A stretch of 64,000 nt of DNA, from positions 1 to 64,000 of the forward strand of contig JAFWBT010000029.1 in assembly GCA_017507005.1 (NCBI GenBank). The letters run 5' to 3'. The position numbers were made by a program, and so were the translations under genes. Positions 1-51,377 of this stretch are shown in pieces. The DNA is from Clostridia bacterium (GTDB lineage: Bacteria; Bacillota; Clostridia; Christensenellales; Borkfalkiaceae). The notes beneath the pieces were generated by a model, which had not been told where the DNA came from, did no database searches, and saw only the letters and a program-made list of their open reading frames with translations. Numbering within the stretch: position 1 is the first letter of the stretch; each line of letters begins with the position of its first letter.

Positions 1-167
1 ACTTTCAATTCTTCATACGCAGAAGTGATATAATCGGGGTGGAATTCTGCCAAAACGGCGTCTTTTTCTTCCGCCGTCATTCTTGCGTGAAGTTTTTCGA
101 TACGAGAAGCGCGGGTTGCTTCTACTTTTTTCATAGATTCAAGTTGTTCTTGAGTATAATGATACAT
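1..167 (-). CDS. Fumarate reductase/succinate dehydrogenase-type flavoprotein, N-terminus only (partial)
   Basis: Only the first 55 codons lie in the window; the gene runs off the left edge. The ATG at 167 has a strong AAGGAGG six bases upstream and starts 11 bases after the stop of the iron-sulfur subunit gene. The visible part begins MYHYTQEQLESMKKVEAT and contains RMTAEEKDAVLAEFHPDYI. This resembles, from memory, the leader that precedes the FAD domain in clostridial soluble fumarate reductase flavoproteins. No FAD motif is inside the window, so the call rests on this resemblance and on position after a FrdB/TfrB-like subunit in an operon with malate dehydrogenase and fumarase. If correct, it reduces fumarate to succinate in the cytoplasm. 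Confidence 0.6.
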   Translation of the reverse strand, partial: MYHYTQEQLESMKKVEATRASRIEKLHARMTAEEKDAVLAEFHPDYITSAYEELK

Positions 168-178
168 AGCGCGCCTCC

Positions 179-853
179 TTATTTCTCGATTTCTCTGTGA
201 TTATACAGATTCTTTTGTTCTTCCAAAGGCGTGTTCATAATCGCCTCCAAAGCCGCCTTGCAATCCCCTCTATCAATTTCCGCAACGCGGTTGATGAGGT
301 GTTCGGTCTTAGGCGCAAGATATTTACCCGTAAGACGTCTTGTCAACAAAGCCACCTGGGGATGGGAAATCCCTGCGGGACAACGGGACGAGCATACGCC
401 GCACATAACGCAGTCGAAGCTCTCTTCCGCCGCTTTTTCGTATTCGCCGCGCTGTGCGTATGCGATATACTGCATAACGTTAAGCTCTTGCGTACAGCTC
501 TTGGTGCATGCGTTACAACCAATACAGGAATAGATTTCGGGATACAGCTGCATCATAATTTGCTGCGTGGGCTTAATCTCGTTGATATCGTACACCTGCT
601 TTACGAGCGGGAAGAAAGGCAACGTCGCTACGTACATACCCTCTTCTACCTGCTGCTGACAAGCAAGGCAGGATTTGAGTTCTTGCTGACCGTGGATACG
701 ATAAATCGTCGCGCAAGCGCCACAGAAACCGTTTCTGCAACCGCAACCGCGAACAAGCTGATAGCCCGCATATTCCATAGCCTTCATAATCGTCAAGCTT
801 TCCGGCACTTGATAACGTTTACCGAAAAGATATACATTAACCATATTTTCCAT
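179..853 (-). CDS. Fumarate reductase iron-sulfur subunit (FrdB/SdhB/TfrB N-terminal type)
   Basis: A 224-residue electron-transfer subunit. A plant-type 2Fe-2S site is formed by Cys39, Cys44, Cys47 and Cys62. Two 4Fe-4S sites follow: Cys110/113/116/120 (CIGCNACTKSC) and Cys148/151/154/158 (CVMCGVCSSRCP). This is the succinate dehydrogenase/fumarate reductase B layout, with a second 4Fe-4S in place of a 3Fe-4S. Thiol:fumarate reductase TfrB continues into CCG (HdrB-like) domains, but this protein stops before them, and a separate hdrB lies earlier in the operon. GGAGAG six bases upstream supports the ATG at 853. The gene lies 12 bases after the FlxA-like gene. It probably passes electrons to the adjacent flavoprotein. 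No membrane anchor subunit is visible. Confidence 0.85.
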   Translation of the reverse strand: MENMVNVYLFGKRYQVPESLTIMKAMEYAGYQLVRGCGCRNGFCGACATIYRIHGQQELKSCLACQQQVEEGMYVATLPFFPLVKQVYDINEIKPTQQIMMQLYPEIYSCIGCNACTKSCTQELNVMQYIAYAQRGEYEKAAEESFDCVMCGVCSSRCPAGISHPQVALLTRRLTGKYLAPKTEHLINRVAEIDRGDCKAALEAIMNTPLEEQKNLYNHREIEK

Positions 854-865
854 TGTTTTCTCTCC

Positions 866-1693
866 TTAGTACTCGTCAGGAAGCTCGTCCAGCTCCGTCA
901 TGCGGAATACGGGACCGTCTTTACAAACGAATTTGTCGCCAACGTTACATCTGCCGCATTTACCAACGCCGCATTTCATACGAAGTTCCAGCGTCGTATA
1001 CACGCGCGATTTGTCAAAGCCAAGCTCTAACAGACCTTGCAAGGTAAATTTGATCATGATGGGAGGACCGCAAAGCACCGCCGTCATGTTAGGATCAAGC
1101 CCCAATTCCTTTACGTATGCAGGCACGAAACCAACGTGTCCGTCCCAACCGTCTTGAGGACGGTCGATCGTCAGATATACTTCCGTATTCGGCTCGTTCA
1201 CCCACTCGTTTTGAATTTCGTCGATATCCACGAGGTCGTCTTTACTTCTCGCGCCGTACACGATTACAACTTTGCCGTAATTTGCGCGATAATGACGCAC
1301 GTAATTGATAACGCTACGCAAAGGTGCAAGACCGATACCGCCTGCGATAAAGAGCAAATCTTTGCCCTTAAAATCCTCTTCCACGGGGAAATTTTTGCCG
1401 TAAGGGCCACGAACGGTAACCTGCGCGCCTACTTCCAACGCGTGCAACACTTCGGTAACGCAACCGCACTTTTTAATGGAAAATTCCATAAATTCTTCGT
1501 TCGTAGGCGACGAAGTGATAGAGAACATACATTCCCCAACGCCAGGAATCGAAACCATCGCGCACTGACCGGGCATATGCTGGAACAGTTTTTTGCCGTC
1601 CGTGCCAACGACGCGGAACGTCTTTACGTCGGGAGTATCTTTACGGATATCCGTTATAACGCCGACTTTGGGAATAAGAGTTTCATTAATCAT
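866..1693 (-). CDS. flxA: FAD/NAD(P)-binding oxidoreductase with C-terminal 2Fe-2S site (FlxA-like)
   Basis: 275 residues of the ferredoxin-NADP reductase superfamily, close to PyrK, AsrB, hydrogenase gamma and FlxA proteins. A flavin-binding barrel with GECMFSITSSP lies near residues 53-63. A nucleotide-binding motif, AGGIGLAPLRS, is at 117-127. Four cysteines at 241, 246, 249 and 257 (CGVGKCGRC...C) make a 2Fe-2S site. In FlxABCD-HdrABC complexes FlxA oxidises NADH and feeds electrons through iron-sulfur partners to HdrA. Here it sits in one operon with all the expected partners, so NADH entry to the Hdr complex is the likely role. AsrB-type sulfite reduction is less likely because no siroheme subunit is near. 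Confidence 0.82.
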   Translation of the reverse strand: MINETLIPKVGVITDIRKDTPDVKTFRVVGTDGKKLFQHMPGQCAMVSIPGVGECMFSITSSPTNEEFMEFSIKKCGCVTEVLHALEVGAQVTVRGPYGKNFPVEEDFKGKDLLFIAGGIGLAPLRSVINYVRHYRANYGKVVIVYGARSKDDLVDIDEIQNEWVNEPNTEVYLTIDRPQDGWDGHVGFVPAYVKELGLDPNMTAVLCGPPIMIKFTLQGLLELGFDKSRVYTTLELRMKCGVGKCGRCNVGDKFVCKDGPVFRMTELDELPDEY

Positions 1694-2726
1694 TGTCTTT
1701 TCCTCCCAACGTTTTAATTACTTTTACGATATTCAGGTTTTGAGGACACTTATTCACACAACGTCCACAACCTACGCAGGAATACAGACCGTCGTTCTGC
1801 GAAGGATAATACACCAGCTTGTGCATGAAACGCTGACGGAATCTCTGCATCTGCGTCGTACGGCTGTTGCCGTGCGCCATCAACGTGAAATCGGAATACA
1901 TGCAGGAATCCCAACAACGATAACGGATAACCCCTTCGTGCGTCTTAAAATCGCGAATATCAAAGCACTGACAGGTGGGACATACAAACGTGCAAGTACC
2001 GCAGCCAAGGCAAGCCTCGCTCATTTCTTCCCATTCCTTAGCCTCGAACAATTCATTGAGATTTTCAGGCTGGAATTTGCTAAGATCAAGATTAGAAAAC
2101 GGCAGTTTGTCGATAATAACCTTGGTAGCCTCTTTCTGCGCTTCCACTTCCTTTTCGCCGCCCTCTTCCAGCAAATCTTTCACGAGCGCGGTGAGCGCCT
2201 CACCCTTTTCGGTGTTTGCCTGCCAATAGAGGTATTCGTTATCCAGCCACGTCGTTACGTCGCCCTGCGGCGCTGTAGCGTCGATATCGAACACTCTACA
2301 GAAACAGCTTTCCTCGGGACGGGAACAAGCGAGTGTCACAATCGTGGTAGCGTTTCTTCTGTTCTGATAATAGGTGTCAATAGGCTCGGCAAGGAACACT
2401 TTATCCAACACCTCAATCGCCTTATAATCGCACGCTTTTACGCCGAACAAGACGAAAAGTTTGCCTTCTTCCACGTAATCGCGACGAACGTCAACGACCT
2501 CGATATTTTTGCCTTCCTGCTTGAATTTCATCATATTTTCCGTTTGCGGGAAGAACATATTTTTAGGGGATTTCACCGTTTTCAGCGTTTCCAAAGAAAC
2601 TTCTTTGCCTTCGCTCCATACGGCGTAGTTTACTTCCCCTGCCTTTTTAACGGGAATAAACAGCCCCATGCTTTCATTGATTTTTGCATAAAGTTCATTT
2701 AATCTTTCTTTTGCGATCTTCAACAT
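1686..2726 (-). CDS. 4Fe-4S dicluster protein, AsrA/hydrogenase-beta type (FlxB/FlxC-like)
   Basis: 346 residues. The N-terminal domain has SPKNMFFPQTENMMKF (53-68) and LFGVKACDYKAI (93-104), typical of anaerobic sulfite reductase subunit A and sulfhydrogenase beta proteins. Two clusters follow: Cys239/242/245/249 (CLGCGTCTFVCP) and Cys317/320/323/327 (CVGCGRCVNKCP). Between them is the CWDSCMYSDF block common to this family. The last codons overlap the start of the FlxA-like gene by 8 bases, and the start touches the stop of the upstream gene, which implies coupled translation. It probably relays electrons between the NADH-oxidising subunit and FlxD/HdrA. I cannot tell FlxB from FlxC by sequence, so no symbol is given. 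Confidence 0.75.
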   Translation of the reverse strand: MLKIAKERLNELYAKINESMGLFIPVKKAGEVNYAVWSEGKEVSLETLKTVKSPKNMFFPQTENMMKFKQEGKNIEVVDVRRDYVEEGKLFVLFGVKACDYKAIEVLDKVFLAEPIDTYYQNRRNATTIVTLACSRPEESCFCRVFDIDATAPQGDVTTWLDNEYLYWQANTEKGEALTALVKDLLEEGGEKEVEAQKEATKVIIDKLPFSNLDLSKFQPENLNELFEAKEWEEMSEACLGCGTCTFVCPTCQCFDIRDFKTHEGVIRYRCWDSCMYSDFTLMAHGNSRTTQMQRFRQRFMHKLVYYPSQNDGLYSCVGCGRCVNKCPQNLNIVKVIKTLGGKDND

Positions 2727-3706
2727 TATTTTGCCTCCCCGTTAAAAACGTCGTTCGGTTCGGTATCCCCTTCGGTGTAAGTCGTCAAAGGCGTCTTACC
2801 TTCCGATTCTTCCCCAGCCTGATATTCGCCGTAAAGCGTATCGATATCTTTGATGAACTTTCTGTTCAACAAATGCAAAGGAATATTTTGAGGACATACT
2901 CTCGAACATTCGCCACAGTCGGTACAACGTCCAGAAACGTGGAACGCACGGATGATATGGAACAACTGTTCTTCAAACTTGTCGTCGTTCGCTTTCGCCG
3001 CAATACCCGACGCGGGATTGTCAAATACGCATTTTACGCAAGAACAAGCGGGACATACGTTACGGCAAGCGTTACAACGAATACATTTGCTCAGTTGTTC
3101 ACGCCAGAACGCAAAACGTTCGTCTTCCGTCATCGCTTCAAGCTTTTCCACTTCTTCAAAACGGTTCACTTCGCGTTCGGGACGTTCGTGCAGAATAATC
3201 TCTTCGTCCTTTACCTGATGCGTTTTCGTGCAAACCGCACACTTGCTGAGCACAACGTCGGGCTTATACAGCGTTTCTACGCCATACGCCGTCGTCACTT
3301 TCACGTCCTTATCCACCACCTCTACGTCGGTGATAAAGGAAACGCCTTTCGCCTTCATCTTTTCTACGTCGAGCTTTGCAAGACACTCTACAGCAATCAC
3401 GTATACGTTTTCACGATTGATACGATGTTCTTTTACGAGCTGATTAAAGCTGTACGTATCGCAAGGCTTTAAGAATACAGCCGTCTTACCTTCCTTTTTC
3501 GCCATCTGAATAAGATATTTGGAAAGGTTCGCACCGCAGAACCAGTTGTAAACGAAGCCGTTTTCCATCTCTTCCACGCTCTCAAAGGATGCAGGAGCAG
3601 GGTCGTAACAAAATTCGCCTTTTTTCCAGCCGATTACGCGCGCCACTTCACCGCTTTGCAGCAATGCTTTTGCGCGTTCGAGCATTTTCAATTCAACGTC
3701 TTTCAT
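2726..3706 (-). CDS. 4Fe-4S dicluster protein with hydrogenase-beta (FrhB)-like N-terminus (FlxB/FlxC-like)
   Basis: 326 residues. The N-terminal half has FLKPCDTYSFNQLVKE near 78-93 and CAVC at 156-159, resembling F420-hydrogenase/dehydrogenase beta domains. The C-terminal half has Cys208/211/214/218 (CIRCNACRNVCP) followed by CSCVKC, then Cys261/264/267/271 (CTDCGECSRVCP). The last 50 residues are acidic and look flexible. It shares the stop/start junction at 2726 with the next gene and follows FlxD directly. In known FlxABCD modules two such iron-sulfur proteins link the NADH-oxidising subunit to FlxD and HdrA. That role fits here, although its electron partners are inferred from operon position only. 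Confidence 0.72.
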   Translation of the reverse strand: MKDVELKMLERAKALLQSGEVARVIGWKKGEFCYDPAPASFESVEEMENGFVYNWFCGANLSKYLIQMAKKEGKTAVFLKPCDTYSFNQLVKEHRINRENVYVIAVECLAKLDVEKMKAKGVSFITDVEVVDKDVKVTTAYGVETLYKPDVVLSKCAVCTKTHQVKDEEIILHERPEREVNRFEEVEKLEAMTEDERFAFWREQLSKCIRCNACRNVCPACSCVKCVFDNPASGIAAKANDDKFEEQLFHIIRAFHVSGRCTDCGECSRVCPQNIPLHLLNRKFIKDIDTLYGEYQAGEESEGKTPLTTYTEGDTEPNDVFNGEAK

Positions 3707-3707
3707 C

Positions 3708-4160
3708 TTATTCGCCCTCCTTCACTCTGAGGTCGGTAAGGCGTTTGTTTTCGCCAAGCTCCGCTACCTGTTTCACAAAATCGTTCATAACAGCCGAGAA
3801 ACGTGCGCCTTCTGCCGCCGATACCCATTCCAAACGGGTACGTTCTTTTTCGATACCCATATAGTTGAGGAAGCTATACAACAGCGCCATTCTTCTTCTC
3901 GTGTAATAGTTACCCGTAACGTAGTGGCAATCCCCGGGATGACAGCCGCAAAGAATAACGCCGTCAGCGCCCTGCTGGAACGCCTTTAATACGAACATAG
4001 GATTTACGCGGCACGAACAAGGCACGCGGATAATTTTTACGTTTGCGGGATACGTAAGACGGCTAGAACCTGCAAGGTCTGCGCCGGCATACGAACACCA
4101 GTTGCAACAAAAGGCAACGATGGTAGGCGTAAATTCTTTCTTTTCGGTTACTTCTTGCAT
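3708..4160 (-). CDS. flxD: FlxD/MvhD-type iron-sulfur subunit
   Basis: 150 residues from the ATG at 4160, chosen because GGAGGT lies nine bases upstream; a longer reading would start inside hdrA without a ribosome site. Cysteines at 18, 19, 22, 48, 50, 71, 73 and 78 (CCNWCSYAG, VPCSCRV, LCGCHPGDCHY) match MvhD. MvhD is the 2Fe-2S protein that hands electrons to HdrA in methanogen MvhADG-HdrABC and in bacterial FlxABCD-HdrABC. The gene overlaps the end of hdrA by 13 bases, so the pair is translationally coupled. No hydrogenase large or small subunit is present, so its donor is more likely the NADH-oxidising FlxA-like protein than hydrogen. Confidence 0.88.
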   Translation of the reverse strand: MQEVTEKKEFTPTIVAFCCNWCSYAGADLAGSSRLTYPANVKIIRVPCSCRVNPMFVLKAFQQGADGVILCGCHPGDCHYVTGNYYTRRRMALLYSFLNYMGIEKERTRLEWVSAAEGARFSAVMNDFVKQVAELGENKRLTDLRVKEGE

Positions 4161-6139
4161 ATTGCTTCTACCTCCGACATGATCTGTTTGGAGCTGAATC
4201 CTTTCAAATCCATTGCCCCCGAAGGACAGGTTACCGTACAAGCGCCGCAACCCTGACAAACGGCAGGATTTACGTTCGCTACGCGACGGATTTCCGTCTT
4301 ACCTCCGCCGATACGGAATTCCTTATCGACGTACGTGATCGCGCCGTATGCGCAAACGTTCGCGCATTGACTACAACCGTTACACATATTTTCATCAGGC
4401 ATTGCTACGCAAGGATTCGTCTTTAACTTGTCTTTTACAAGCAAACCGATTACCTTCGCCGCGCAAGCCGACGCCTGTGATACCGTTTCGGGAATATCCT
4501 TAGGGCCTTGACATACGCCTGCAAGATATACGCCTGCCGTAGGGCTTTCTACGGGACGGAGCTTTGCGTGCGATTCGGTGAGGAAGTTGTTCGTGTCAAT
4601 ACTTGCCGTCAACAACGTCGCCACTTTTCTAACGGAAGGTTCGGGTTCGATAGCTGCCGCCAAGACAACGAGGTCGGATTCAATCGTAATCTGTTCGTTG
4701 TCAATCAAGTTCGAGCCTTGCACCATCAATTTACCGTTTTCATTGTATACTTTGCCAACCATACCCTTGATATAGTTTACGCCGTACTGTTCCACCGCGC
4801 GGCGATAGAATTCGTCGTAGTTCTTACCAGGCGTACGTACGTCGATATAGAATACGTTCACCTGCGTATCAGGATATTTTTCACGAATCAACATTGCGTG
4901 CTTTGCCGTATACATACAGCAGATTTTCGAGCAATAAGGTTTGCCGCAACCGCTGGTATCACGCGAGCCTACGCATTGAATAAAGGTGATTACCTTCGGA
5001 TGTTCGTTATCGGAAGGACGGAGCAGCACGCCGTTGGAAGGACCTGCCGCGTTCATCAAACGTTCGAGTTCGAGCGAGGTGATAACGTCCTTATTATCGT
5101 TGTAGCCGTATTCGTTAAACGCGTCCAGCTCGATAGGTTTAAAGCCCGTCGCAACGACGATTGCGCCGTACTGACGTTCCACAAACGTATCTTTCTGTTC
5201 ATAGTCGATTGCGCCTACGCCGCAGAATTTCTGACAAATACCGCATTTACCCGTTTTGAGCTTGATACACTGTTCGGGGTCGATTACGGCAACGTTCGGG
5301 ATTGCCTGCGCGAAAGGAATATAGATGGCAGGACGATTGTTCAAACCCATATTGAACGTATTAAGCCCTTTCTTGGAAGGACATTTTTCCATACAGATTT
5401 TACAGCCCGTACATTTCGTTTCGTCAACGAATCTTGCCTTACGGCGAATCTTTACGCTGAAATTACCGACAAAGCCCTTTACGTCTTCCACTTCGGAATA
5501 GGACAAAATGTCGATTTTTTCGTGTTGCGCGCAGTCTACCATTTTCGGCGTGAGAATACAAGCGGAACAATCGAGCGTGGGGAACGTCTTATCAAGCTGC
5601 GCCATTCTGCCGCCGATAGTAGCGTTCTTTTCTACGATATCTACTTCAAAACCTGCGTCTGCAATATCCAGAGCCGCCTGAATACCTGCAATACCGCCAC
5701 CGATTACGAGCGCACGTTTGATAACGGGGCTTTCCCCTGCCTGCAACGGCGCGTTCAGTTTTACTTTTGCAATCGCCGTGCGAACGAGGATTACCGCTTT
5801 TTCCGTTGCTTCGTCCATATCCTTATGGATCCACGAGCAATGTTCACGGATGTTCGCAATTTCTACCATGTAGGGATTAAGCCCTGCTTCTTCCGCAGCT
5901 TTACGGAACGTAGCCTCGTGCATTCTAGGCGAACAAGCGCCGATTACGATACCCGTAAGATTATGTTCTTTGATTGCCTGTTTGATAAGCTGTTGGCCGT
6001 TTTCGGAGCACATATACTGATAGTTTTCGGAATATACGACGCCAGGTTCACTCTTAATCGTTTCCGCTACCTTTTTAACGTCTACCGTTGCCGCGATGTT
6101 GCTGCCGCACCAACAAATAAAAACACCTATTCTTTGCAT
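4148..6139 (-). CDS. hdrA: Heterodisulfide reductase subunit A (HdrA), electron-bifurcating flavoprotein
   Basis: 663 residues, full length for HdrA. The N-terminus has the usual IGVFICWCGSNIA. The FAD-binding GGGIAG is at 147-152. 4Fe-4S sites are visible at Cys243-Cys253 (CTGCKICMEKC) and near the C-terminus (CNGCSQCANVC and CQGCGACTVTC). A cysteine-rich middle section (CGKPYCSKICC) is also typical. In characterised complexes the HdrA flavin splits electron pairs between a low-potential acceptor (ferredoxin) and HdrB. The gene is followed by flxD with a 13-base overlap and preceded by hdrC after 60 bases. The physiological high-potential acceptor in this organism is not shown by the sequence. 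The operon context points to fumarate. Confidence 0.92.
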   Translation of the reverse strand: MQRIGVFICWCGSNIAATVDVKKVAETIKSEPGVVYSENYQYMCSENGQQLIKQAIKEHNLTGIVIGACSPRMHEATFRKAAEEAGLNPYMVEIANIREHCSWIHKDMDEATEKAVILVRTAIAKVKLNAPLQAGESPVIKRALVIGGGIAGIQAALDIADAGFEVDIVEKNATIGGRMAQLDKTFPTLDCSACILTPKMVDCAQHEKIDILSYSEVEDVKGFVGNFSVKIRRKARFVDETKCTGCKICMEKCPSKKGLNTFNMGLNNRPAIYIPFAQAIPNVAVIDPEQCIKLKTGKCGICQKFCGVGAIDYEQKDTFVERQYGAIVVATGFKPIELDAFNEYGYNDNKDVITSLELERLMNAAGPSNGVLLRPSDNEHPKVITFIQCVGSRDTSGCGKPYCSKICCMYTAKHAMLIREKYPDTQVNVFYIDVRTPGKNYDEFYRRAVEQYGVNYIKGMVGKVYNENGKLMVQGSNLIDNEQITIESDLVVLAAAIEPEPSVRKVATLLTASIDTNNFLTESHAKLRPVESPTAGVYLAGVCQGPKDIPETVSQASACAAKVIGLLVKDKLKTNPCVAMPDENMCNGCSQCANVCAYGAITYVDKEFRIGGGKTEIRRVANVNPAVCQGCGACTVTCPSGAMDLKGFSSKQIMSEVEAICKK

Positions 6140-6199
6140 ATTATTTACTCTCTTTCTTTAGAATTTCAATTTTTTTATGCCGTCCCTTGCGGGAAAAAG

Positions 6200-6586
6200 T
6201 TACTTGTTATATTTTCTGTACGCGCTGACGAGGAGCTGCTGAGGAATCAATTCGTCAACAATCGGCGGAATTTCTTCTGCCTTGATGCCGTTTTTACCCT
6301 GCATCCTCACCACCGTATCACGTACCGCTTCTACCACAGCCGCAGGCGCAACGCCACGAGGACAACGCTCTACGCAAGCCATACAAGAAAGACAATTCCA
6401 TATCGCTTCGCATTCCAAAAGCTCGTCTATCTTGCCGTTACAGAGCATAGAAACGAACTGGTGCGGCTTGATATCCATTTCCTTAAACGCAGGACAGCGT
6501 CCCGAACATTTGCCGCATTTCATACACTTTCTAACGTCCGTGCCGCTGAGTCTGTTCAAATTTTCAATGCGTTCTTCTTTCGTCAT
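6200..6586 (-). CDS. hdrC: Heterodisulfide reductase subunit C (HdrC), 4Fe-4S ferredoxin-like
   Basis: 128 residues with two classical 4Fe-4S sites: Cys21/24/27/31 (CMKCGKCSGRCP) and Cys65/68/71/75 (CLSCMACVERCP). Size and spacing match soluble HdrC, which carries electrons from HdrA to HdrB. There is no membrane segment, unlike HdrE-linked forms. The start ATG overlaps the hdrB stop as ATGA, indicating translational coupling. A GGGGGT lies upstream at a usable distance. Confidence is high because hdrB and hdrA flank it. Confidence 0.9.
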   Translation of the reverse strand: MTKEERIENLNRLSGTDVRKCMKCGKCSGRCPAFKEMDIKPHQFVSMLCNGKIDELLECEAIWNCLSCMACVERCPRGVAPAAVVEAVRDTVVRMQGKNGIKAEEIPPIVDELIPQQLLVSAYRKYNK

Positions 6587-7362
6587 GCTTTTACCCCCAA
6601 CGCTTCTGCGAGAAGCTCTGTGAAGTATTTGACGGGCAGGATACCGCCACCGTTTACCTGCAAATTATACAAACACAAGGGGCAAGCGGTGATCACTTCT
6701 TCCGCACCCTTTTCCTTTGCGCTCGCTAACACTTTTTCGCTCTTTTTCTTAGGCAGTTCGCTATTCTTGAGTGATACGTACGCGCCGCAACATTCGTTAC
6801 GGAAAGGATACACGACGGGCGTACCGCCAATCGCGCGGATGAAATCCTCGATAATCGTAGGATTTTCGGGGTTGTCAAACGCCATAACGCCGCTAGGACG
6901 CAGGAGCAGACAGCCGTAATACGCGCCGATTTTGCGGTTGATGGGATTTACCACCGCTTTTTTGATATTCTCAAAACCAACGACGTTTTTCAGCATTTCA
7001 AGGTAGTGGAGCACCTCCGTTTCCCCTTTATACGGTTCGTCGAGTTTGAGATAGTTGTTCGCGCGCGAGCAAATATCCTCGTTCGTTTTCATATCCTCGT
7101 TGGTACGCTTGATTACGTTATGACAAGCCGAGCACAGCGTCAACAGTTTACCGCCGTTATGCTTTGCGTAATCGAGCGCGCGCACCGCCGAAAGTTTCGT
7201 TGCGATTTCGTCCGTACCCATAGGATACACGGCGCCGCAACATTGCCAATTTTCGATTTCCTCCATTTCTACGCCCAGAGCTTTCGCGCAAAGACGAGCG
7301 GTATCGTCCAATTCTTTCGCTTTCGTTCTGAGCGTACAGCCGGGATAATAACTGATTTTCAT
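6583..7362 (-). CDS. hdrB: Heterodisulfide reductase subunit B (HdrB), two CCG domains
   Basis: 259 residues with both CCG domains intact: Cys9, Cys41-Cys42, Cys77 and Cys80 in the first; Cys151, Cys191-Cys192, Cys227 and Cys230 in the second. In methanogen HdrB these ligands bind two noncubane 4Fe-4S clusters that reduce the CoM-S-S-CoB disulfide. Bacteria like this one are not expected to use those coenzymes, so the true substrate or partner is unknown. It could be a protein disulfide (DsrC-like), a low-molecular-weight disulfide, or direct transfer to the fumarate reductase encoded in the same operon. It lies 34 bases after fumC. Confidence 0.9.
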   Translation of the reverse strand: MKISYYPGCTLRTKAKELDDTARLCAKALGVEMEEIENWQCCGAVYPMGTDEIATKLSAVRALDYAKHNGGKLLTLCSACHNVIKRTNEDMKTNEDICSRANNYLKLDEPYKGETEVLHYLEMLKNVVGFENIKKAVVNPINRKIGAYYGCLLLRPSGVMAFDNPENPTIIEDFIRAIGGTPVVYPFRNECCGAYVSLKNSELPKKKSEKVLASAKEKGAEEVITACPLCLYNLQVNGGGILPVKYFTELLAEALGVKA

Positions 7363-7396
7363 TTTTATACGCTACCTTTGTATTCGATTCGTTCGC

Positions 7397-8773
7397 TTAT
7401 TTCTGCGGATACGCCATTTCTTCGGGACGGAACACTTCGTCGAATTTTTCCGCCGTCAAGAAACCGAGCGCTACGCACGCTTCTTTGAGGGAAATGTTTT
7501 CTTTGTACGCTTTCTTTGCCGTCTTTGCCGCGTTCTCATAGCCGATATAAGGATTGAGCGCCGTTACCAACATCAACGAATTATACAGGTTGTGGTGCAT
7601 CTTTTCCTTATTCGCCTTGATACCCGTTACGCAATTCTTTTCAAACGACGTGATACCCGTTGCCAACAATCTTACCGACTGCAAGAAATTGTAGATAATC
7701 ACGGGCATAAATACGTTCAACTCGAAATTACCCTGCGACGCGCCCATACCAACGGCTACGTCGTTCGCCATTACCTGCACCGCTACCATCGTCATCGATT
7801 CGCACTGCGTAGGATTTACCTTACCCGGCATAATCGAAGAACCGGGTTCGTTTTCGGGAATAAAGATTTCCCCAAGCCCGTCACGAGGACCGCTCGCTAG
7901 CCAACGTACGTCGTTCGCAATCTTCATCAAGTTGCAAGCGAGCGCTTTCAAAGCGCCGTGTGCGAACACAAGCTCGTCTTTGGACGTCAACGCGTGGTAT
8001 TTATTTTCCGCCGTCACGAACGTCTTACCCGTCAATTCGGATACCTGCGCCGCTACTTCCTCCGCAAAGCCCTTAGGCGCGTTCAAGCCCGTGCCGACAG
8101 CCGTGCCGCCAAGCGCGAGTTCTTTAAGCCCAGGCAACGCGAGCGCAAGCTGCGCTTTCGTCTTTTCAATCATATTCGTCCAGCCGCTAATCTCCTGCGA
8201 GAATGCGATGGGAACAGCGTCCTGCAAATGTGTTCTGCCGCTCTTTACAATTCCCTCGTTTTCCGCTTCAAGACGTTTGAGGGTGGCAATCAACGTATCC
8301 ATTGCAGGGAATAAATCGTCCTCAATCGCTACGACAGCCGCAATATGCATTGCCGTAGGGAAGGTGTCGTTAGAGCTTTGGCTCTTATTGATGTCGTCGT
8401 TGGGGTGCAACAGCTTGCTACCAGCAATCTCGTTGCCGCGGTTTGCGATAACTTCGTTTGCGTTCATATTCGACTGCGTGCCACTACCCGTCTGCCATAC
8501 GACGAGCGGAAAATGTCCGTTCAGCTCGCCCGAAATCACCTCGTCGCAAGCCGCGCAAATAGCGTTTTTCTTTTCTTCGGGGAGCTTGCCAAGCTTACAG
8601 TTTGCAAGGGCAGCCGCCTTTTTCAAAATACCGAACGCGCGCGTGATTTCACGAGGCATAATTTCGCCGCCGATTTGGAAGTTTTGATAACTTCTCTGCG
8701 TCTGCGCCGCCCAATATCTATCCGCGGGGACTTGCATTTCCCCCATGGTGTCTTTTTCAATACGATATTCCAT
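7397..8773 (-). CDS. fumC: Fumarate hydratase, class II
   Basis: 458 residues, normal for the iron-independent class II enzyme that interconverts malate and fumarate. All three conserved regions are present: [10 protein letters not shown] (95-104), SGRTHLQDA (178-186, catalytic His182) and the signature [11 protein letters not shown] (311-321). GGAG lies nine bases before the ATG. Aspartase is the nearest alternative, but FumC is favoured by context: malate dehydrogenase is immediately upstream (19 bases) and fumarate reductase downstream, which gives an oxaloacetate-to-succinate route in one operon. An oxygen-tolerant FumC in an organism full of iron-sulfur enzymes is not unusual. Confidence 0.93.
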
Positions 8774-8792
8774 TTTTTCTCACTCCAATCCC

Positions 8793-9743
8793 TTAAATTT
8801 CGATTTGCGCAATAACGCCTTTCAATACTTCCGCGCTATGACGCATCTTTTCCAATTCGTCGTCGGAAAGCTTCGGCGTCAACGTCGTTACGATACCCTT
8901 ATTGCTGATAGCACAAAGCGTCGAGAGCGCAACGTCGGAAATGCCGTACTCGCCTTCAAGCACCGTCGAAACGGGCAAAATCGAATACGCGCTCGAATAA
9001 ATGCAGTTGATAATCTTGGTGACGCAAGCCGCAATGCCGTAGAACGTAGCGCCCTTGCCTGCGATAATCTGACCGCCCGATTTTTTAACGTATTCTTCCA
9101 CTTCTTCACGCGTATACGGCGTCACTTTTAATACGTCTTTATCCGTCAGTGTCTTTTCGTATTCACCAAGAGGAATACCCGAAATATCCGCCGTAGACCA
9201 AGCCACAAAGGAAGAATCGCCATGTTCACCCAAAACGTACGCGTGTACCTGCTGCTGATTTACCGAATACAATTCGGAAAGACGGGTACGCAAACGAATA
9301 CTATCCAACGTCGTACCCGTACCGATAACGCGGTTTTTAGGTACGCCCGTAATCTTGCAGAATACGTAGGTAAGAATATCTACGGGGTTTGCAACGAACA
9401 AATACAGCGCATCAGGCGCAGCCTTTACGATTTGCGGAGCAATGCTCTTCAAAATGTTGACGTTGATTTGCGTAAGGTCGATACGGGACTGACCAGGCTT
9501 TCTGCCTACGCCACTCGTCACAACGACGATATCCGAACCAACAGCGTCCTCGTACGTTCCGTAATAAATCTTTACAGGGGAAAGATAGGGCGTAGCCTGA
9601 CGGATATCCAACGCCTCGCCTTTTGCCTTTGCCTCGTTTACGTCGATGAGCACAATCTCTGCCACCGAACCCGTTGCCACCAACGTGTAAGCCACGGTAG
9701 CGCCTACCGAACCTGCGCCGATAATAGTAACTTTGTTTGTCAT
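8793..9743 (-). CDS. mdh: LDH-like malate dehydrogenase
   Basis: 316 residues of the NAD-dependent lactate/malate dehydrogenase family. The Rossmann motif GAGSVG is at 9-14, and Asp34 indicates NAD preference. The catalytic His is in GEHGDS, with LDSIRLR providing the Asp and Arg that act with it. Most of the protein looks like L-lactate dehydrogenase, but the substrate-discriminating loop reads GVGRKPGQSR, with Arg81 at the place of LDH Gln102. Arginine there is the classic determinant for oxaloacetate/malate. With fumC directly downstream, malate dehydrogenase is the better call. It is the first gene of the operon, with GGAGAGG before the ATG. Confidence 0.82.
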   Translation of the reverse strand: MTNKVTIIGAGSVGATVAYTLVATGSVAEIVLIDVNEAKAKGEALDIRQATPYLSPVKIYYGTYEDAVGSDIVVVTSGVGRKPGQSRIDLTQINVNILKSIAPQIVKAAPDALYLFVANPVDILTYVFCKITGVPKNRVIGTGTTLDSIRLRTRLSELYSVNQQQVHAYVLGEHGDSSFVAWSTADISGIPLGEYEKTLTDKDVLKVTPYTREEVEEYVKKSGGQIIAGKGATFYGIAACVTKIINCIYSSAYSILPVSTVLEGEYGISDVALSTLCAISNKGIVTTLTPKLSDDELEKMRHSAEVLKGVIAQIEI

Positions 9744-9814
9744 ATAGATTCCTCTCCGTTTAATGAATTTTTCGTATGTATACCCCTATTTTTAGCATAA
9801 AGGTTGGAGTGTTT

Positions 9815-9830
9815 TGGGCGTATACGCCCA
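9815..9830. promoter_or_regulatory. Candidate operator: 16-bp perfect palindrome
   Basis: TGGGCGTATACGCCCA is perfectly self-complementary and lies about 7 to 22 bases downstream of the expected transcription start of the mdh operon. A degenerate half copy, TATACCCCTA, follows at 9779-9788. The position suits a repressor or a dimeric redox or metabolite sensor. No known regulator consensus is recognised. Confidence 0.5.
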
Positions 9831-9843
9831 TTGATACGATTCT

Positions 9844-9872
9844 ATTATAACATAATTTTTTCTGAATCACAA
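9844..9872 (-). promoter_or_regulatory. Promoter of the mdh-fumC-hdr-flx-frd operon
   Basis: On the minus strand the -35 is TTGTGA (9867-9872) and the -10 is TATAAT (9844-9849), separated by 17 bases. Transcription should start near 9837, giving a leader of about 90 bases before mdh. The -35 resembles half of a Rex redox-repressor site, but the other half is missing. Confidence 0.7.
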
Positions 9873-9958
9873 ATACTTGAACCTTACTATATATAATTTT
9901 TAATCGCTAAATCGATAAATTTTTATCTTTTTACTGGCTTTTGCTAAATTTTTCCATA

Positions 9959-9992
9959 AAAAATCTGTGTGGCATTCACCGCACAGATTTTT
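9959..9992 (-). terminator. Rho-independent terminator after the coiled-coil membrane protein gene
   Basis: Nine-base arms AAATCTGTG and CACAGATTT (9961-9969 and 9982-9990), followed on the minus strand by a U-run. It begins a few bases after the stop codon at 9998. Confidence 0.8.
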
Positions 9993-9997
9993 TTCTT

Positions 9998-11272
9998 TTA
10001 TTTTATCCACAACCTTTGATTATACCGCAAATCGTTCAACAACGTTTCACTGCTTTGGTTTGCTTTTTCCAACAAAGCCTTATTTAATTCCGTCACCGAC
10101 AACTGTTCTTGTTGTAGCCGTACGATAGAGCCGCCAATCTCATTGATTGCGCTTGCCTGCACCTGCTGTATTCTTTGTCCTTCCTCTATCGAATACGCAA
10201 CGCGTTCCATCTTTTGCGACATCTCATTCAACTGTTTTCCTATCAGCGTAAAGCTCGCCTCCAAAGCCGTAGCCAAACGCATTGTTGCCGAATGCACACT
10301 AGACTGAATCGCTTGACTCGCAGCCGAAATTGCGTTCGTGATTTGGTCCGTTTGTTTTTGTTTATCCACGAGCTGCAACGCCTCTTTCAAATCGTCCGCG
10401 CGCCGTGTTTCCAGATAGAAAATCAACAGGTCGATATTTCCCCAATCGGCTTCTAAAATTAAACCCTCGTACGATTCTTTCAACGCGTTTTCCAACATCT
10501 TACTCTGCGCTACTACGGCGGTAATTTCCCCGTTCTTTTCTTCGGCTATCCTTACGTTTTTATTTTTTTGTTCCGCCAAGTTTTCTTCTGCCACTCGTAT
10601 TTTTTCTTTTATCTGACGAATATTCGCGTTGCAATTTTTCAAACAATCTTGCTCATCATCGAGATATTTTTTCTTAGTTCCTACATATTTACAACAAGCT
10701 CTTTCCAGCGCTTCAATTTCTTTTCTATATCTTTCGCTTTCTCCTTTAATCAATAACTTTTTACTTATCAACAACCCAATTATTGATGCAATAAATAAAA
10801 GCAAGCCCCCAATACATATGGGTTTCATATCTTCAAGAAAAGCTAAAAAACTCTCTCTCGGACTTTTCATTGTTTCTAATATTGACATACCCAAAAGAAG
10901 ATTTATTACTAACAAAATAATACTCGCTACACGAAAAAAAGTAACACTTAGAGAACCTTTTTTTAATAATCCTTTCTTATCCATCATTTTGTATTTTAAA
11001 TTTGTAACATTCTCATCTTTTTCTGCCCATTCTTCGGATATCTCTTTATCTATCTTCTTAATCCTGTCAACATATGCTTTGCGTAATCCCTCGCTCTTTT
11101 TTAGTTCTTCGTTGTAAGCATTTATTTCCATCTGCTTTTGTTTCGCTTCGTTTTCATTTAAAGCAATCACTTCTTCTTTTGCCCGAATTTCGTCTGTATA
11201 TCCAGAAATAACGGACAAACCGCCACGCAATGCATATAAATCTGCTACAATTTCATCTTTTGTTTTTGCCAT
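9998..11272 (-). CDS. Membrane-anchored coiled-coil protein of unknown function
   Basis: 424 residues from the ATG at 11272, preceded by AGGAGG at 11280-11285. A longer reading has no ribosome site. It begins MAKTKDEIVADLYALRGG. A charged coiled-coil of roughly 100 residues is followed by two membrane segments (FFRVASIILLVINLLLGMSI and PICIGGLLLFIASIIGLLIS) joined by a short polar loop. After these comes a second long coiled-coil rich in Lys, Glu and Gln, and a Gln/Ser-rich tail of methyl-accepting-like helices without a clear MCP hairpin motif. No catalytic motif is visible and I do not recognise a family. It is monocistronic: it has its own promoter, an unusual structured leader and its own terminator. 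Confidence 0.8.
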   Translation of the reverse strand: MAKTKDEIVADLYALRGGLSVISGYTDEIRAKEEVIALNENEAKQKQMEINAYNEELKKSEGLRKAYVDRIKKIDKEISEEWAEKDENVTNLKYKMMDKKGLLKKGSLSVTFFRVASIILLVINLLLGMSILETMKSPRESFLAFLEDMKPICIGGLLLFIASIIGLLISKKLLIKGESERYRKEIEALERACCKYVGTKKKYLDDEQDCLKNCNANIRQIKEKIRVAEENLAEQKNKNVRIAEEKNGEITAVVAQSKMLENALKESYEGLILEADWGNIDLLIFYLETRRADDLKEALQLVDKQKQTDQITNAISAASQAIQSSVHSATMRLATALEASFTLIGKQLNEMSQKMERVAYSIEEGQRIQQVQASAINEIGGSIVRLQQEQLSVTELNKALLEKANQSSETLLNDLRYNQRLWIK

Positions 11273-11291
11273 ATTAAAACCTCCTGCAAAT

Positions 11292-11324
11292 AAAAAAGTG
11301 TCGCTCCACAAAACGAAACGACAC
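11292..11324 (-). terminator. Terminator hairpin inside the leader (candidate attenuator)
   Basis: On the minus strand GTGTCG and CGACAC (11319-11324 and 11298-11303) pair and are followed by six U (11292-11297), only 19 bases before the start codon at 11272. A second GTGTCGC copy higher in the leader (11352-11358) could compete for CGACAC, so readthrough may be conditional. Confidence 0.6.
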
Positions 11325-11345
11325 CTGTAAAAATGTCCTTCTCGC

Positions 11346-11466
11346 TTTGCTGCGACACAATTGAATTAAACAACGATTCTTCGACGAAAGTTGTAACGCG
11401 AAAAGAATACACTCCTACCAAAGAAGTATATTTCGCCAAAAAATCTTTATTCAATTATGTCGCAAC
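11346..11466 (-). promoter_or_regulatory. Structured 5' leader with an 18-bp long-range stem
   Basis: Arms at about 11349-11370 and 11446-11466 pair over 18 consecutive positions, with two G-U pairs, enclosing about 75 bases. The structure starts at the expected transcription start (about 11463) and precedes the terminator hairpin at 11292-11324. No riboswitch class is recognised. Confidence 0.5.
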
Positions 11467-11469
11467 CTT

Positions 11470-11498
11470 ATTCTACCACTTAATTTCGCTTTTGTCAA
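11470..11498 (-). promoter_or_regulatory. Promoter of the coiled-coil membrane protein gene
   Basis: TTGACA (11493-11498), 17-base spacer, TAGAAT (11470-11475) on the minus strand. The predicted leader is about 190 bases long. Confidence 0.75.
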
Positions 11499-11513
11499 TC
11501 ATTTTTCCAAAAG

Positions 11514-11540
11514 AAAAAACCTCGCCGTAAAAGACGAGGC
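11514..11540 (-). terminator. Terminator after the DUF308-type gene
   Basis: CCTCG and CGAGG arms (11520-11524 and 11535-11539) with six U following on the minus strand. It lies about 30 bases after the stop at 11571. Confidence 0.7.
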
Positions 11541-11570
11541 TTTGTATTCTTATTTAATTCGTATTCCTAT

Positions 11571-12050
11571 TTACTCTTCGGAAAACGCGTTCGCAAGCAG
11601 CAAACCGCCTTCGACAATCGTCAAAATACCGCTAATAATTAACACCAAATCAATCAATTTGCCTTGATGGAACAACAGCATAATCCCGATAGCGATAAAC
11701 AGCGACGGCACGGCGTATTCGCATATCGTATGGAACAGAGTGTGACAGCGTACACGGTGTTTTATCTTGTCGTACAACATCAAAATCCCAACGACGAGCA
11801 GCACAGCCGCTACGATATACAACACCGCCGTCAGCACCGTCCAGCCGCATACGATAATCAGCACGCCGACTACCATTTTTATAATAGCAGGCGGCAACAT
11901 TTTATTCACGAGGTCGAGCACGCCAACGACGATAAGCGCAATCCCTGCCACCGTCATTAAAATACCGATAAAATCCCCTTTCAACGCAATCAGCAATACG
12001 CCGAACGCAATCGTCAACGCTGCCGAAATAATTCTTTCCGTTTTTTTCAT
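11571..12050 (-). CDS. DUF308/HdeD-like small integral membrane protein
   Basis: 159 residues, almost entirely hydrophobic, with about six membrane helices in a repeated two-helix pattern of glycine-rich segments (GVLLIALKGDFIGILMTVAGIALIVVGVLDL, then GVLIIVCGW...VLLVVGILML). This is the DUF308 (HdeD) layout. Some family members are linked to acid stress, but no biochemical role is established for clostridial forms. AGGAGA precedes the ATG. The 63-residue gene upstream ends 24 bases away, so the two are probably co-transcribed from the promoter at 12332-12360. Confidence 0.75.
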   Translation of the reverse strand: MKKTERIISAALTIAFGVLLIALKGDFIGILMTVAGIALIVVGVLDLVNKMLPPAIIKMVVGVLIIVCGWTVLTAVLYIVAAVLLVVGILMLYDKIKHRVRCHTLFHTICEYAVPSLFIAIGIMLLFHQGKLIDLVLIISGILTIVEGGLLLANAFSEE

Positions 12051-29552: not shown

Positions 29553-30728
29553 TTACAGTTTTTGTAAGGTTTCCATTACGTAATCGCCAAATTGGTCGCA
29601 TGTCGCGCCCGTATCTCTGCCCGTGATGACGTATTTCTTTTCTTCAAAAGAACAGATATCCAACGCGCGTTCTAATTTGTCCGCTCTATCCTGCAAGCCG
29701 ATATGCGACAACAGCATTACGCAAGCGCGGAGCATAGAACAAGGATCTGCATATTTGCCTCTGCCTTCCGTAATCATACGGGGCGCACTGCCGTGGATTG
29801 CCTCGAACATAGCGTATTTTTTACCGATATTCGCACACCCTGCCGTGCCTACGCCGCCTTGGAATTCCGCCGCTTCGTCGGAGATGATATCGCCGTACAA
29901 ATTCGGCAACAGCAACACTTTGAAATCCTTTCTGCGCTTTTTGTCTACGAGCTTTGCCGTCATAATGTCCGCATACCACTCGTCCGTGATAATGTCGGGA
30001 TACATATCGCCTACCTTATGGCAATCTTCCAAGAAATTGCCGTCCGTCGTCTTAATAACGTTCGCTTTCGTGACGAGGGACACTCTGTTCAGCCCGTTCT
30101 TATGCGCGTAATCGTACGCAAGACGCGCAATACGGTCAGAGCCTTGTTTCGTCGTCACCGTAAAGTCCACAGCCAAATCATCCGTTACGTTAAAGCCCGA
30201 CGAGCCGACTGCATAGCCACCTTCGGTATTTTCACGGAAAATCGTCCAGTTGATACCCTCTTCGGGCACTTTTACAGGACGGATATTTGCAAACAAATCG
30301 AGTGCCTTTCGCATAGCAACGTTTGCCGATTCGATATTCGGCATACCGCTACCCTTTTGCGGCGTCGTCGTAGGACCTTTGAGAATAATATGGCAAGCTT
30401 TCAGCTCTGCCATGACGTCGTCGGGGATAGCCTTGCCTTTTTCAATACGGTTTTCAATGGTAAGCCCCTCGATATCTTTGAACTCCACCTTGCCTTTTTC
30501 CACGAGGTCGGCAAGGATAAATTCCAGTACGCGTCTTGCCTGCGCGGAAATAATCGGACCGATACCGTCGCCGCCGCAAACGCCGATTTTGATACAATCA
30601 AGCGTTTCGTAATCCACGAAATCGCCTTGCGCTTTCATATCCTCTACTCGCGTGAGCTGCTGTTCTAAGATTTTTCTAAATTTTTCACACGCAACGTCAA
30701 GCTGCGCTCTGTATTCTTCCTTTTCCAT
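29553..30728 (-). CDS. Isocitrate dehydrogenase (isocitrate/isopropylmalate dehydrogenase family)
   Basis: 391 residues of the beta-decarboxylating dehydrogenase family. It has GDGIGPIISAQARRVLE (nucleotide entry), RENTEGGYAVGSSG (substrate loop), the metal site TDEWYADIMTAKLV and LPNLYGDIISDEAAEFQGGVG, and HGSAPRMITEGRGKYADP near the cofactor site. Operon context with citrate synthase and aconitase argues for isocitrate to 2-oxoglutarate rather than isopropylmalate. Coenzyme choice (NAD or NADP) cannot be fixed from the sequence alone. AGGAG precedes the ATG. It lies 49 bases after aconitase. Confidence 0.87.
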   Translation of the reverse strand: MEKEEYRAQLDVACEKFRKILEQQLTRVEDMKAQGDFVDYETLDCIKIGVCGGDGIGPIISAQARRVLEFILADLVEKGKVEFKDIEGLTIENRIEKGKAIPDDVMAELKACHIILKGPTTTPQKGSGMPNIESANVAMRKALDLFANIRPVKVPEEGINWTIFRENTEGGYAVGSSGFNVTDDLAVDFTVTTKQGSDRIARLAYDYAHKNGLNRVSLVTKANVIKTTDGNFLEDCHKVGDMYPDIITDEWYADIMTAKLVDKKRRKDFKVLLLPNLYGDIISDEAAEFQGGVGTAGCANIGKKYAMFEAIHGSAPRMITEGRGKYADPCSMLRACVMLLSHIGLQDRADKLERALDICSFEEKKYVITGRDTGATCDQFGDYVMETLQKL

Positions 30729-30777
30729 CGGTATATATCTCCTATTTTTTCTCTTTTTATCGAAACGTATCTTTTAA

Positions 30778-32709: not shown

Positions 32710-32747
32710 TTTTCTATCCTCTTTCTATATTCTTCCCTATGCGTACG

Positions 32748-45782: not shown

Positions 45783-47153
45783 TTATTCTGCCATATATTT
45801 ATCTATATATTCTTTACGGATACGTTTCAATTCGCTCTTGGGTAATATCTTCAACAGTTTCCAACCCAAATCCAGCGTTTCTTCTATCTTTCTATCCTTT
45901 TCAAAGCCCTGATTGACGTATTCTTTTTCAAAAGCTTCGGCAAATTTTGCGTACAGTTTATCTACGTCGGAAAGCGCCGCCTCACCTAAGATAGCCGACA
46001 GTTCTTTCGCCTCTTTACCTCGCGCATATGCCGCGAACAGCTGGTTCATAGTGTCTGCGTGGTCTTCACGAGTCTTTTCCCTGCCGATACCTTTATCCTT
46101 CAATCGGGACAACGACGGCAACACGTCAACGGGTGGATTGATGCCTTTTTTATACAAATCACGAGAAAGAATAATCTGCCCTTCTGTGATATATCCCGTA
46201 AGGTCGGGAATAGGATGCGTCTTATCGTCTTCGGGCATCGTCAAGATAGGAATTTGCGTGATAGAACCCTCTTTACCGCGAATACGGCCTGCTCTTTCAT
46301 ACAAGCTCGCAAGGTCGGTGTATAAATAGCCGGGATAGCCACGTCTACCGGGCACTTCACGGCGCGCCGCCGACACTTCACGCAACGCTTCTGCGTAGTT
46401 GGTGATGTCCGTCATAATAACGAGCACGTGCATACCCTTTTCAAACGCCAAATATTCCGCGCAGGTAAGCGCCATACGAGGCGTGGAAATACGTTCTACG
46501 GCAGGGTCGTTTGCGAGGTTGGTAAAGAGTACCGTTCTTTCAATCGCGCCCGTTTTCTTGAAATCGTCTACGAAATACTGCGCTTCTTCAAACGTGATAC
46601 CAATCGCCGCAAACACAACGGCGAATTTACAATCGCCACTGCGTACCTTTGCCTGACGGGCAATCTGCGCGGCAAGCTCTGCGTGCGGCAAACCGCTCAT
46701 AGAAAATACGGGCAATTTTTGACCTCGAACGAGCGTATTCAAGCCGTCAATGGCGGAAATACCCGTCTGAATAAATTCGTTGGGATAATCACGCGCCGCA
46801 GGGTTAATCGGCTCGCCGTTGATATCCATTTTCTTTTCGGGGATAATGGGCGCGCCGCCGTCACGGGGATTGCCCATACCGTCGAACACTCTGCCTAACA
46901 TATCCTCGGACACCGCAAGCTCTTGCGCGTGCCCTAAAAAGCGCGCTCTCGCGCCTGCAATTTGCAAGCCTTGCGAGTTTTCAAACAACTGCACCACCGC
47001 TTTGTCGCGGTTGATTTCCAGCACTTTACCGCGACGGATTTCGCCGTTCGTATTGACGATATCGACAAGCTCGTTATACGTAACGCCCTCGACGCCCTCG
47101 ACAATCATCAGAGGCCCTACGACTTCGCGAATCGTTTTATATTCCTTAAACAT
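45783..47153 (-). CDS. V-type ATP synthase subunit B
   Basis: 456 residues from the ATG at 47153, which has AAGGAGGT seven bases upstream; an upstream TTG in frame overlaps that site and is rejected. The start overlaps the end of subunit A by eight bases. B is the non-catalytic head subunit: it lacks a full P-loop ([17 protein letters not shown] in that place) but keeps [23 protein letters not shown] and the C-terminal helical domain. It sits at alternating positions with subunit A. Confidence 0.95.
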
Positions 47154-48912: not shown

Positions 48913-48933
48913 TTATTTATCCTCACTATATCG

Positions 48934-49251: not shown

Positions 49252-49266
49252 ATCGCACCTCCGTCC

Positions 49267-50244: not shown

Positions 50245-50259
50245 GTTTTTCTCCAAAGA

Positions 50260-50829: not shown

Positions 50830-50839
50830 ACTCTCGTCC

Positions 50840-51283: not shown

Positions 51284-51377
51284 AATAAAAATCCTCCGAT
51301 TTTCTTTTTTTCTTCTTTAATTATATTTATATAAAAATTACTTATATAAAAACGACGATTTTAGATGACAGCCGTTT

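Follow-up and report, generated by a model that had tools for sequence, protein, structure and literature searches.

The left end of the window analysed here, bases 1-64000 (64,000 bases) of a 66431-base contig (G000:C19) from a 1.56-Mb Clostridia genome with an estimated completeness of 71%, carries an operon that joins a heterodisulfide reductase (Hdr)-Flx module to a reductase pair, FrdAB. Eleven minus-strand genes run from position 9743 to position 1 in the order mdh, fumC, hdrB, hdrC, hdrA, flxD, flxC, flxB, flxA, frdB and the start of frdA (Table 1). The intergenic gaps range from -19 to +60 bases, and all genes of the closely spaced run described in a first-pass annotation of this DNA were found, in the same order. 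If flxD starts at the ATG at 4160, the likelier start, its overlap with hdrA is 13 rather than 19 bases. Position 1 is the end of the contig and truncates frdA after 55 codons. Because the window's own copy is cut, frdA was read in relatives; 54 of the 55 residues match the complete frdA of relative L032.

The first-pass annotation also placed a promoter upstream of mdh. The pattern exists about 100 bases before the gene (TTGTGA and TATAAT separated by 17 bases, with TG before the second hexamer), but such sites are not above chance in bases 1-12000, where 18 were found and 16.4 ± 4.3 expected. A terminator-like palindromic stem of 15 pairs (9958-9993, plus-strand listing) lies between the operon and the upstream gene, which fits an operon start at mdh.

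Table 1. Features of the operon at the left end of the window
Feature	Position	Strand	Basis or remark
Promoter-like site	9844..9872	-	consensus match only
mdh, lactate/malate dehydrogenase-family enzyme	8793..9743	-	called malate dehydrogenase since Arg precedes the KPG motif
fumC, class II fumarate hydratase	7397..8773	-	TIGR00979, 727.7 bits (cut-off 664.75)
hdrB, two cysteine-rich (CCG) motifs, ten conserved cysteines	6583..7362	-	family models, alignment
hdrC, two 4Fe-4S motifs	6200..6586	-	family models, alignment
hdrA, flavin adenine dinucleotide (FAD) and several 4Fe-4S motifs	4148..6139	-	5odc_A, 696.6 bits
flxD, MvhD type	3708..4160	-	FlpD PF02662, 189 bits
flxC, 4Fe-4S protein	2726..3706	-	family models, alignment
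flxB, HydB/AsrA-like 4Fe-4S protein	1686..2726	-	Fer4_22
flxA, NAD(P)H/FAD oxidoreductase, HydG/AsrB/PyrK-like	866..1693	-	9nez_C, 192.7 bits
frdB, remote SdhB relative, one 2Fe-2S and two 4Fe-4S motifs, no CCG domain	179..853	-	family models, alignment
frdA, first 55 codons	1..167	-	cut by contig end; complete in relatives

The mdh product scored 337 bits with the L-lactate dehydrogenase model TIGR01771 (cut-off 303.55) and 283.3 bits with the malate dehydrogenase model NF004863 (cut-off 283). Because the lactate model outscores the malate model, Mdh can only be called a probable malate dehydrogenase; the arginine before the KPG motif, on which the name was chosen, is presumably a sign of that activity.

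Association of Hdr-Flx with FrdAB within and beyond the order

A total of 150 loci was examined, and 94 of them (89 distinct, five being repeats) have all nine of hdrBCA, flxDCBA, frdB and frdA, indicating that these genes are not neighbours by chance. The remaining loci are cut by contig ends, broken, or without some of the nine genes. Conservation is counted below over 95 rows, the 94 nine-gene loci plus a reference, which is the window's protein except in the FrdA alignment, where the FrdA of L031 serves as reference and L031 thus appears twice. Loci from named organisms are the best 80 of 475 and are therefore biased to the window's clade. Many relatives are of gut-sample origin, according to the titles of their database records.

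The two halves of the operon occur together. Among the 151 genomes of the family sample, FrdB (at least 73% identical) was found in 52, HdrA in 55 and both in 52. In the three genomes with HdrA only, the contig stops short of frdB: in flxC for G015 (3147 bases), in hdrA for G091 (9000 bases) and in flxB for G125 (5131 bases). When the sample was restricted to its 103 good-quality genomes, HdrA was present in 32 and FrdB in those same 32. In the order sample of 297 genomes, FrdA was found in 37, HdrA in 38 and both in 36. One mismatch is the window's own genome (G000), in which HdrA is present and frdA is cut by the contig end; another (G313) has frdA, frdB, flxA and flxB in this order on a contig of 5360 bases that breaks off in flxC. 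The third, G379, has a distant HdrA (43-45% identical), and none of the other operon genes was found in the 15.3 kilobases (kb) fetched. All mismatches but G379 are explained by contig ends. The comparison of hdrA and frdB neighbourhoods that had been proposed for related genomes thus bore out the association, the reductase accompanying HdrA in 52 of 55 family genomes and 36 of 38 order genomes. Within the order, Hdr-Flx and FrdAB belong together. The distant HdrA-like open reading frame (ORF) of G379 encodes 809 residues (L243, 8278-10707; G379:C25).

Gene order is also conserved. In the 20 family loci fetched from the 52 carriers, hdrB-hdrC-hdrA-flxD-flxC-flxB-flxA-frdB is kept without exception, and frdA follows in 19, the contig ending in the other. 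The fumC gene is present in 18 of the 20 and mdh in 12; all eight loci of the window's genus have both, with mdh heading the operon. At order level, flxA directly precedes frdB in all 24 loci fetched (of 37), and hdrA is present in 21, the other three being cut by contig ends. Similar counts were obtained for the loci from named organisms: flxA was found in 71 of the 72 with at least 1.5 kb upstream of frdA, and hdrA in 56 of the 57 with at least 7.5 kb, L236 being the exception. The operon is present in the named strains [Clostridium] asparagiforme DSM 15981 and Blautia glucerasea MSK.21.93. It also occurs, with mdh, in records titled Synergistaceae and Treponema (L218 and L174, the latter with fumC as well), a result of either horizontal transfer or binning error.

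Outside the order the picture is different. In a phylum sample, FrdA of the operon type was found in 38 of 398 genomes, at 39 places. Of these, 26 loci were fetched: no Hdr gene was seen in 16, HdrBC only in three, HdrABC without FlxA in six and full Hdr-Flx in one, although some of these contigs are short upstream (e.g., L133 and L153). On a FrdA tree of 78 rows, from which L048 and L118 were excluded for their short FrdA, the distribution of Hdr-Flx requires 7 changes, compared with an average of 24.5 for shuffled labels; near-copies cluster as well. The partners of FrdAB therefore follow clades and have been exchanged. Ten neighbour proteins from nine phylum loci were tested. Six are a pyruvate carboxylase, two malic enzymes, a class I fumarase, a succinyl-CoA ligase beta and an aspartase (encoded next to HdrABC genes), and they are consistent with a fumarate/succinate substrate pair. 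Of the remainder, one is a BCCT transporter, one is RtcB-like, one is HdrA-like and one has no match. Four Hdr-less loci have, among their neighbours, malic enzyme (two), class I fumarase, pyruvate carboxylase or succinyl-CoA ligase. In other families of the phylum, frdAB is in places accompanied by a very long HdrA-like protein (L147, 1489 residues; L132, 1070 residues).

The Hdr-Flx module and the reductase

HdrA aligns with the solved methanogen HdrA 5odc_A, a bifurcating enzyme, across residues 3-660, nearly its full length. Nearly all of its motif cysteines, including the eight in the C-terminal ferredoxin-type region, are kept in 95 of 95 rows, as are Lys413, which aligns with Lys409 of 5odc_A, and the ten cysteines of the two CCG motifs of HdrB. 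FlxA is similar to sulfhydrogenase I, gamma subunit. With these cluster ligands in HdrABC and FlxABCD encoded beside the hdr genes, the FlxABCD-HdrABC subunit set is, as judged from sequence, present; the Flx assignment was made from family models and gene order. An apparent HdrC-HdrA fusion of 823 residues in L119 proved to be an ORF extension overlapping hdrC.

In relatives of the window's family, FrdA has 534-539 residues, with an FAD_binding_2 domain and about 90 extra residues at the amino end; the C-terminal domain of succinate dehydrogenases (PF02910) was not found in it. The best NCBIfam model for the L031 protein is that of the methanogen thiol:fumarate reductase subunit TfrA (356.2 bits, below the cut-off of 718). 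The succinate dehydrogenase/fumarate reductase model TIGR01812 gave 285.6 bits and the L-aspartate oxidase model TIGR00551 280.7 bits, both under their cut-offs. FrdA H320, T336/E337, R361, H433 and R467 align with His232, Thr244/Glu245, Arg287, His355 and Arg390 of E. coli FrdA. These substrate residues are retained in 94 or 95 of the 95 rows, that is, in the relatives, the window's frdA being cut before them. Their conservation makes FrdA a likely catalytic subunit of a fumarate reductase. A Foldseek search with an AlphaFold model of FrdA of moderate quality (mean predicted local distance difference test score, pLDDT, 69) ranked E. coli FrdA (1kf6) first. The model of FrdB (mean pLDDT 53) was too poor and was left unused; the iron-sulfur motifs of FrdB are kept in nearly all rows.

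Other identities were considered. A thiol:fumarate reductase (TfrAB) was rejected, since FrdB has no CCG domain (PF02754) and FrdA falls under the TfrA cut-off. An L-aspartate oxidase was likewise rejected, FrdA being below the model cut-off with glycine in 95 of 95 rows at the column of NadB Glu121. A membrane-anchored reductase was rejected after examination of the gene beyond the left edge, in relatives, as the first-pass annotation had advised, and a search for anchors. An AspT/YidE-type permease, not a cytochrome anchor, directly follows frdA in all five relatives tested by Pfam, and a relative of this permease is present in 48 of the 80 loci from named organisms. Anchors, and the electron sinks discussed below, were searched with single models in draft genomes of 60 carriers (59 of good quality), comprising the window's genome and every good-quality carrier of both samples, out of 87 carriers overall; controls behaved as expected (e.g., E. 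coli and B. subtilis for PF01127). No carrier had an Sdh cytochrome anchor (PF01127) over the cut-off, in agreement with the absence of an anchor noted earlier, the FrdC and FrdD models being outside the search; matches below the threshold were 18.5 bits in the window's genome and 17.2 bits in G058. The first-pass annotation had also seen no quinone gene; UbiA, the one quinone gene searched, was not found in 58 carriers but is present in two.

Among the best 120 database relatives of FrdA, few are named; the names given are 'FAD-dependent oxidoreductase', 'FAD-binding protein' and, in one case, succinate dehydrogenase/fumarate reductase subunit. With such names, the family may go unnoticed in surveys of fumarate reduction. 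No relative was found among 44 stretches of viral contigs scanned.

Electron flow, energetics and alternative explanations

We consider it probable that the operon encodes a soluble NADH:ferredoxin:fumarate bifurcating complex made of FlxABCD-HdrABC and FrdAB. The complex would oxidise two molecules of reduced nicotinamide adenine dinucleotide (NADH), the presumed donor to Flx-Hdr, and split the electrons, probably at the HdrA flavin. One pair would pass to ferredoxin. The other would travel directly from HdrB to FrdB and FrdA, without a thiol carrier, and FrdA would reduce fumarate, presumably to succinate. Mdh and FumC, encoded in the same operon, would supply the fumarate from oxaloacetate.

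With the customary potentials of ferredoxin and H2, the coupled reaction of two NADH with ferredoxin and fumarate was calculated to have a free energy change of -48.8 kJ/mol (ferredoxin at -420 mV) or -33.4 kJ/mol (-500 mV) under standard conditions, so the earlier view that the energetics allow it holds. The reduction of fumarate by NADH alone gave -68.1 kJ/mol, and the reaction of three NADH with fumarate to succinate and two H2 gave -31.8 kJ/mol. The NAD and fumarate potentials are those in PMC5861303.

NQR2/RnfD, marking Rnf, was found in 25 of the 60 carriers and Proton_antipo_M in three, all Rnf-positive. In the window's genus neither Rnf nor an antiporter-type ion pump was found in any of 12 genomes, one of which, the window's, is 71% complete; Rnf-based energy conservation is therefore unsupported there. 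An [FeFe] hydrogenase is present in 59 of the 60 carriers, G008 being the exception. In the window's genome it is a three-gene enzyme (G000:C10; L052:1602-5755) whose large subunit matches the NADH-dependent group A6 model at 842 bits (cut-off 765), accompanied by NuoF-like and HoxE-like proteins that score below the cut-offs. The lack of Rnf and antiporter-type pumps in the genus together with the trimeric hydrogenase makes it more likely that ferredoxin ends in H2. Reduced ferredoxin and NADH would there probably go to the hydrogenase, and the benefit would lie in balancing redox and releasing H2, not in an ion gradient. The first-pass annotation had proposed a bifurcating complex whose ferredoxin gain replaces quinone-based energy conservation. 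The proposed complex is supported by the co-occurrence of the genes, the active site of the relatives' FrdA, the lack of an Sdh-type anchor match in the 60 carriers and of UbiA in 58 of them, and a reaction that is exergonic on paper; the energy clause finds no support in the window's genus. Bifurcation is plausible, and co-occurrence strengthens the case for it.

A similar operon has been described. According to PMC7282089, the 'succinate operon' of Pseudoclostridium thermosuccinogenes holds a fumarate hydratase, an Flx-Hdr complex, a fumarate reductase and a possible succinate transporter, and the bifurcation proposal is credited to a 2019 preprint of Koendjbiharie and van Kranenburg. Shared with the present operon are the fumarase, Flx-Hdr (its locus tags fit seven genes), two reductase genes and a transporter, which at the end of the P. 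thermosuccinogenes operon is a hypothetical protein, potentially a succinic acid transporter. The likeness is one of gene content, as described; the transporter and the full frdA on our side come only from relatives of the window, and mdh leads the operon of the window's genus, a difference from P. thermosuccinogenes. The same text reports an approximately 4-fold rise of the succinate operon at low CO2 and cites an older study in which added H2 almost abolished succinate. A scheme of this kind has thus already been proposed in print, and the operon is far more widespread than the P. thermosuccinogenes case.

Several observations weigh against a bifurcating complex. No biochemical evidence for bifurcation or complex formation was found in the open-access literature. 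In PMC7282089, the rise at low CO2 did not reach significance for every subunit, and a redox potential lowered with Na2S acted opposite to H2. FrdB is only a remote relative of SdhB, with 34.3 bits against a cut-off of 88. L236 (Ruminococcaceae UBA5295) has FrdAB of the same clade but no Hdr or Flx gene in the 10 kb upstream, and may have lost the partner. Finally, FrdAB occurs mostly without Hdr outside the order, so other electron sources can serve it.

The main alternative, to which we assign a modest chance, is a soluble NADH:fumarate reductase without bifurcation, in which HdrA and Flx are a mere electron wire and ferredoxin is uninvolved. The strongly exergonic reduction of fumarate by NADH alone would permit it, and 35 of the 60 carriers have neither Rnf nor antiporter-type pumps to use ferredoxin. 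However, the conserved HdrA cysteines, the C-terminal eight among them, and Lys413 argue for more than a wire, and a module of this size would be an expensive one. The HdrB motifs raise a different possibility, namely that a soluble thiol/disulfide carrier, comparable to the methanogen heterodisulfide or DsrC, links HdrB to FrdAB in place of direct contact. The CCG clusters of HdrB reduce a disulfide in methanogens, and both CCG motifs are kept here. We nevertheless regard a carrier as improbable: DsrC, the one thiol carrier searched, was not found in any of the 60 carriers, and FrdB lacks a TfrB-like CCG domain able to accept thiol electrons.

FrdAB might instead have another substrate and be, for instance, an L-aspartate oxidase or a different enoate reductase. 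The nearly equal scores of TIGR00551 and TIGR01812 leave room for such a reading, which is very improbable given that neither model reaches its cut-off, that the Glu121 column holds glycine, that fumC and a likely mdh share the operon, and that C4-dicarboxylate genes accompany several loci elsewhere. Operation of the complex in reverse, with succinate oxidised together with reduced ferredoxin to give NADH, is the least likely explanation of all. Such enzymes are in principle reversible, but the reaction would cost about 33-49 kJ/mol under standard conditions, and the column of the E. coli FrdA histidine that binds FAD covalently, presumably a mark of succinate-oxidising enzymes, holds asparagine in 93 of 95 rows and histidine in two.

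The bifurcating complex can be extended to a wider, more doubtful proposal, that across the order Hdr-Flx is a dedicated, quinone-free fumarate machine in which HdrB passes electrons directly to FrdB, with the Rnf-less genera feeding an NADH-dependent [FeFe] hydrogenase. If true, fumarate reduction would drive the release of H2 from NADH (3 NADH + fumarate to succinate + 2 H2, about -32 kJ/mol), placing a fumarate reductase in a hydrogen-releasing role, in contrast to the usual view of it as a hydrogen sink. Succinate formation in many uncultured gut Clostridia would need neither membrane nor quinone and would supply low-potential electrons, which would change how succinate and H2 yields are modelled in these bacteria. 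The presence of the operon in named strains makes the proposal directly testable.

Related systems and other features of the window

All seven subunit types of the Desulfovibrio vulgaris FlxABCD-HdrABC (Ramos et al. 2015) are also present here. The acceptor side of the D. vulgaris complex is reportedly discussed as DsrC or thiols, whereas here DsrC was not found in the carriers and FrdAB is linked. By its title, a 2014 study by Meyer et al. connects Hdr-Flox and Rnf of Desulfovibrio alaskensis G20 with endogenous fumarate reduction; in the window's genus, Rnf was not found.

The methanogen TfrAB, the nearest model match of FrdA, is a further point of comparison; there HdrB-like clusters feed the fumarate reductase, and the HdrB-like domain is here a separate HdrB rather than part of FrdB. 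FrdA shares its fold and active site with E. coli FrdABCD. In contrast to that enzyme, no Sdh-type anchor was found, the covalent-FAD histidine and the C-terminal SDH domain are missing, and FrdB has two 4Fe-4S motifs.

Tubeworm symbionts and Thioflavicoccus have tfrAB together with flxABCD-hdrABC in reductive tricarboxylic acid (TCA) cycle clusters, for which a direct complex is proposed in PMC6315080. Those clusters are of the TfrAB type with korABCD interspersed, whereas here FrdB has no CCG domain and the operon no kor genes. In Endoriftia the expression of tfrAB departs from the rest of the cluster, as stated in PMC11636981. No report of a purified bifurcating fumarate reductase, or of the operon in gut Clostridia, was found in the open-access literature, and the operon is not described in the portions available of PMC12578642, PMC6037941, PMC6776011, PMC9044749 and PMC13014828.

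Elsewhere in the window, also on the minus strand, genes for V-type ATPase subunits B, A and I lie at 45783-53381, in a genome without matches to Rnf, an antiporter-type pump or UbiA. Two minus-strand ORFs, at 9998-11311 (437 residues) and 53948-56092 (714 residues), have no Pfam match at an E value of 1e-10. A further minus-strand group at 29553-34130 encodes proteins matching isocitrate dehydrogenase (below cut-offs) and aconitase (966 bits, over its cut-off) and a homocitrate-synthase-like protein (below its cut-off), which may be a Re-citrate synthase. Such an oxidative arm beside the reductive mdh-fumC-frd arm perhaps represents a split TCA cycle.

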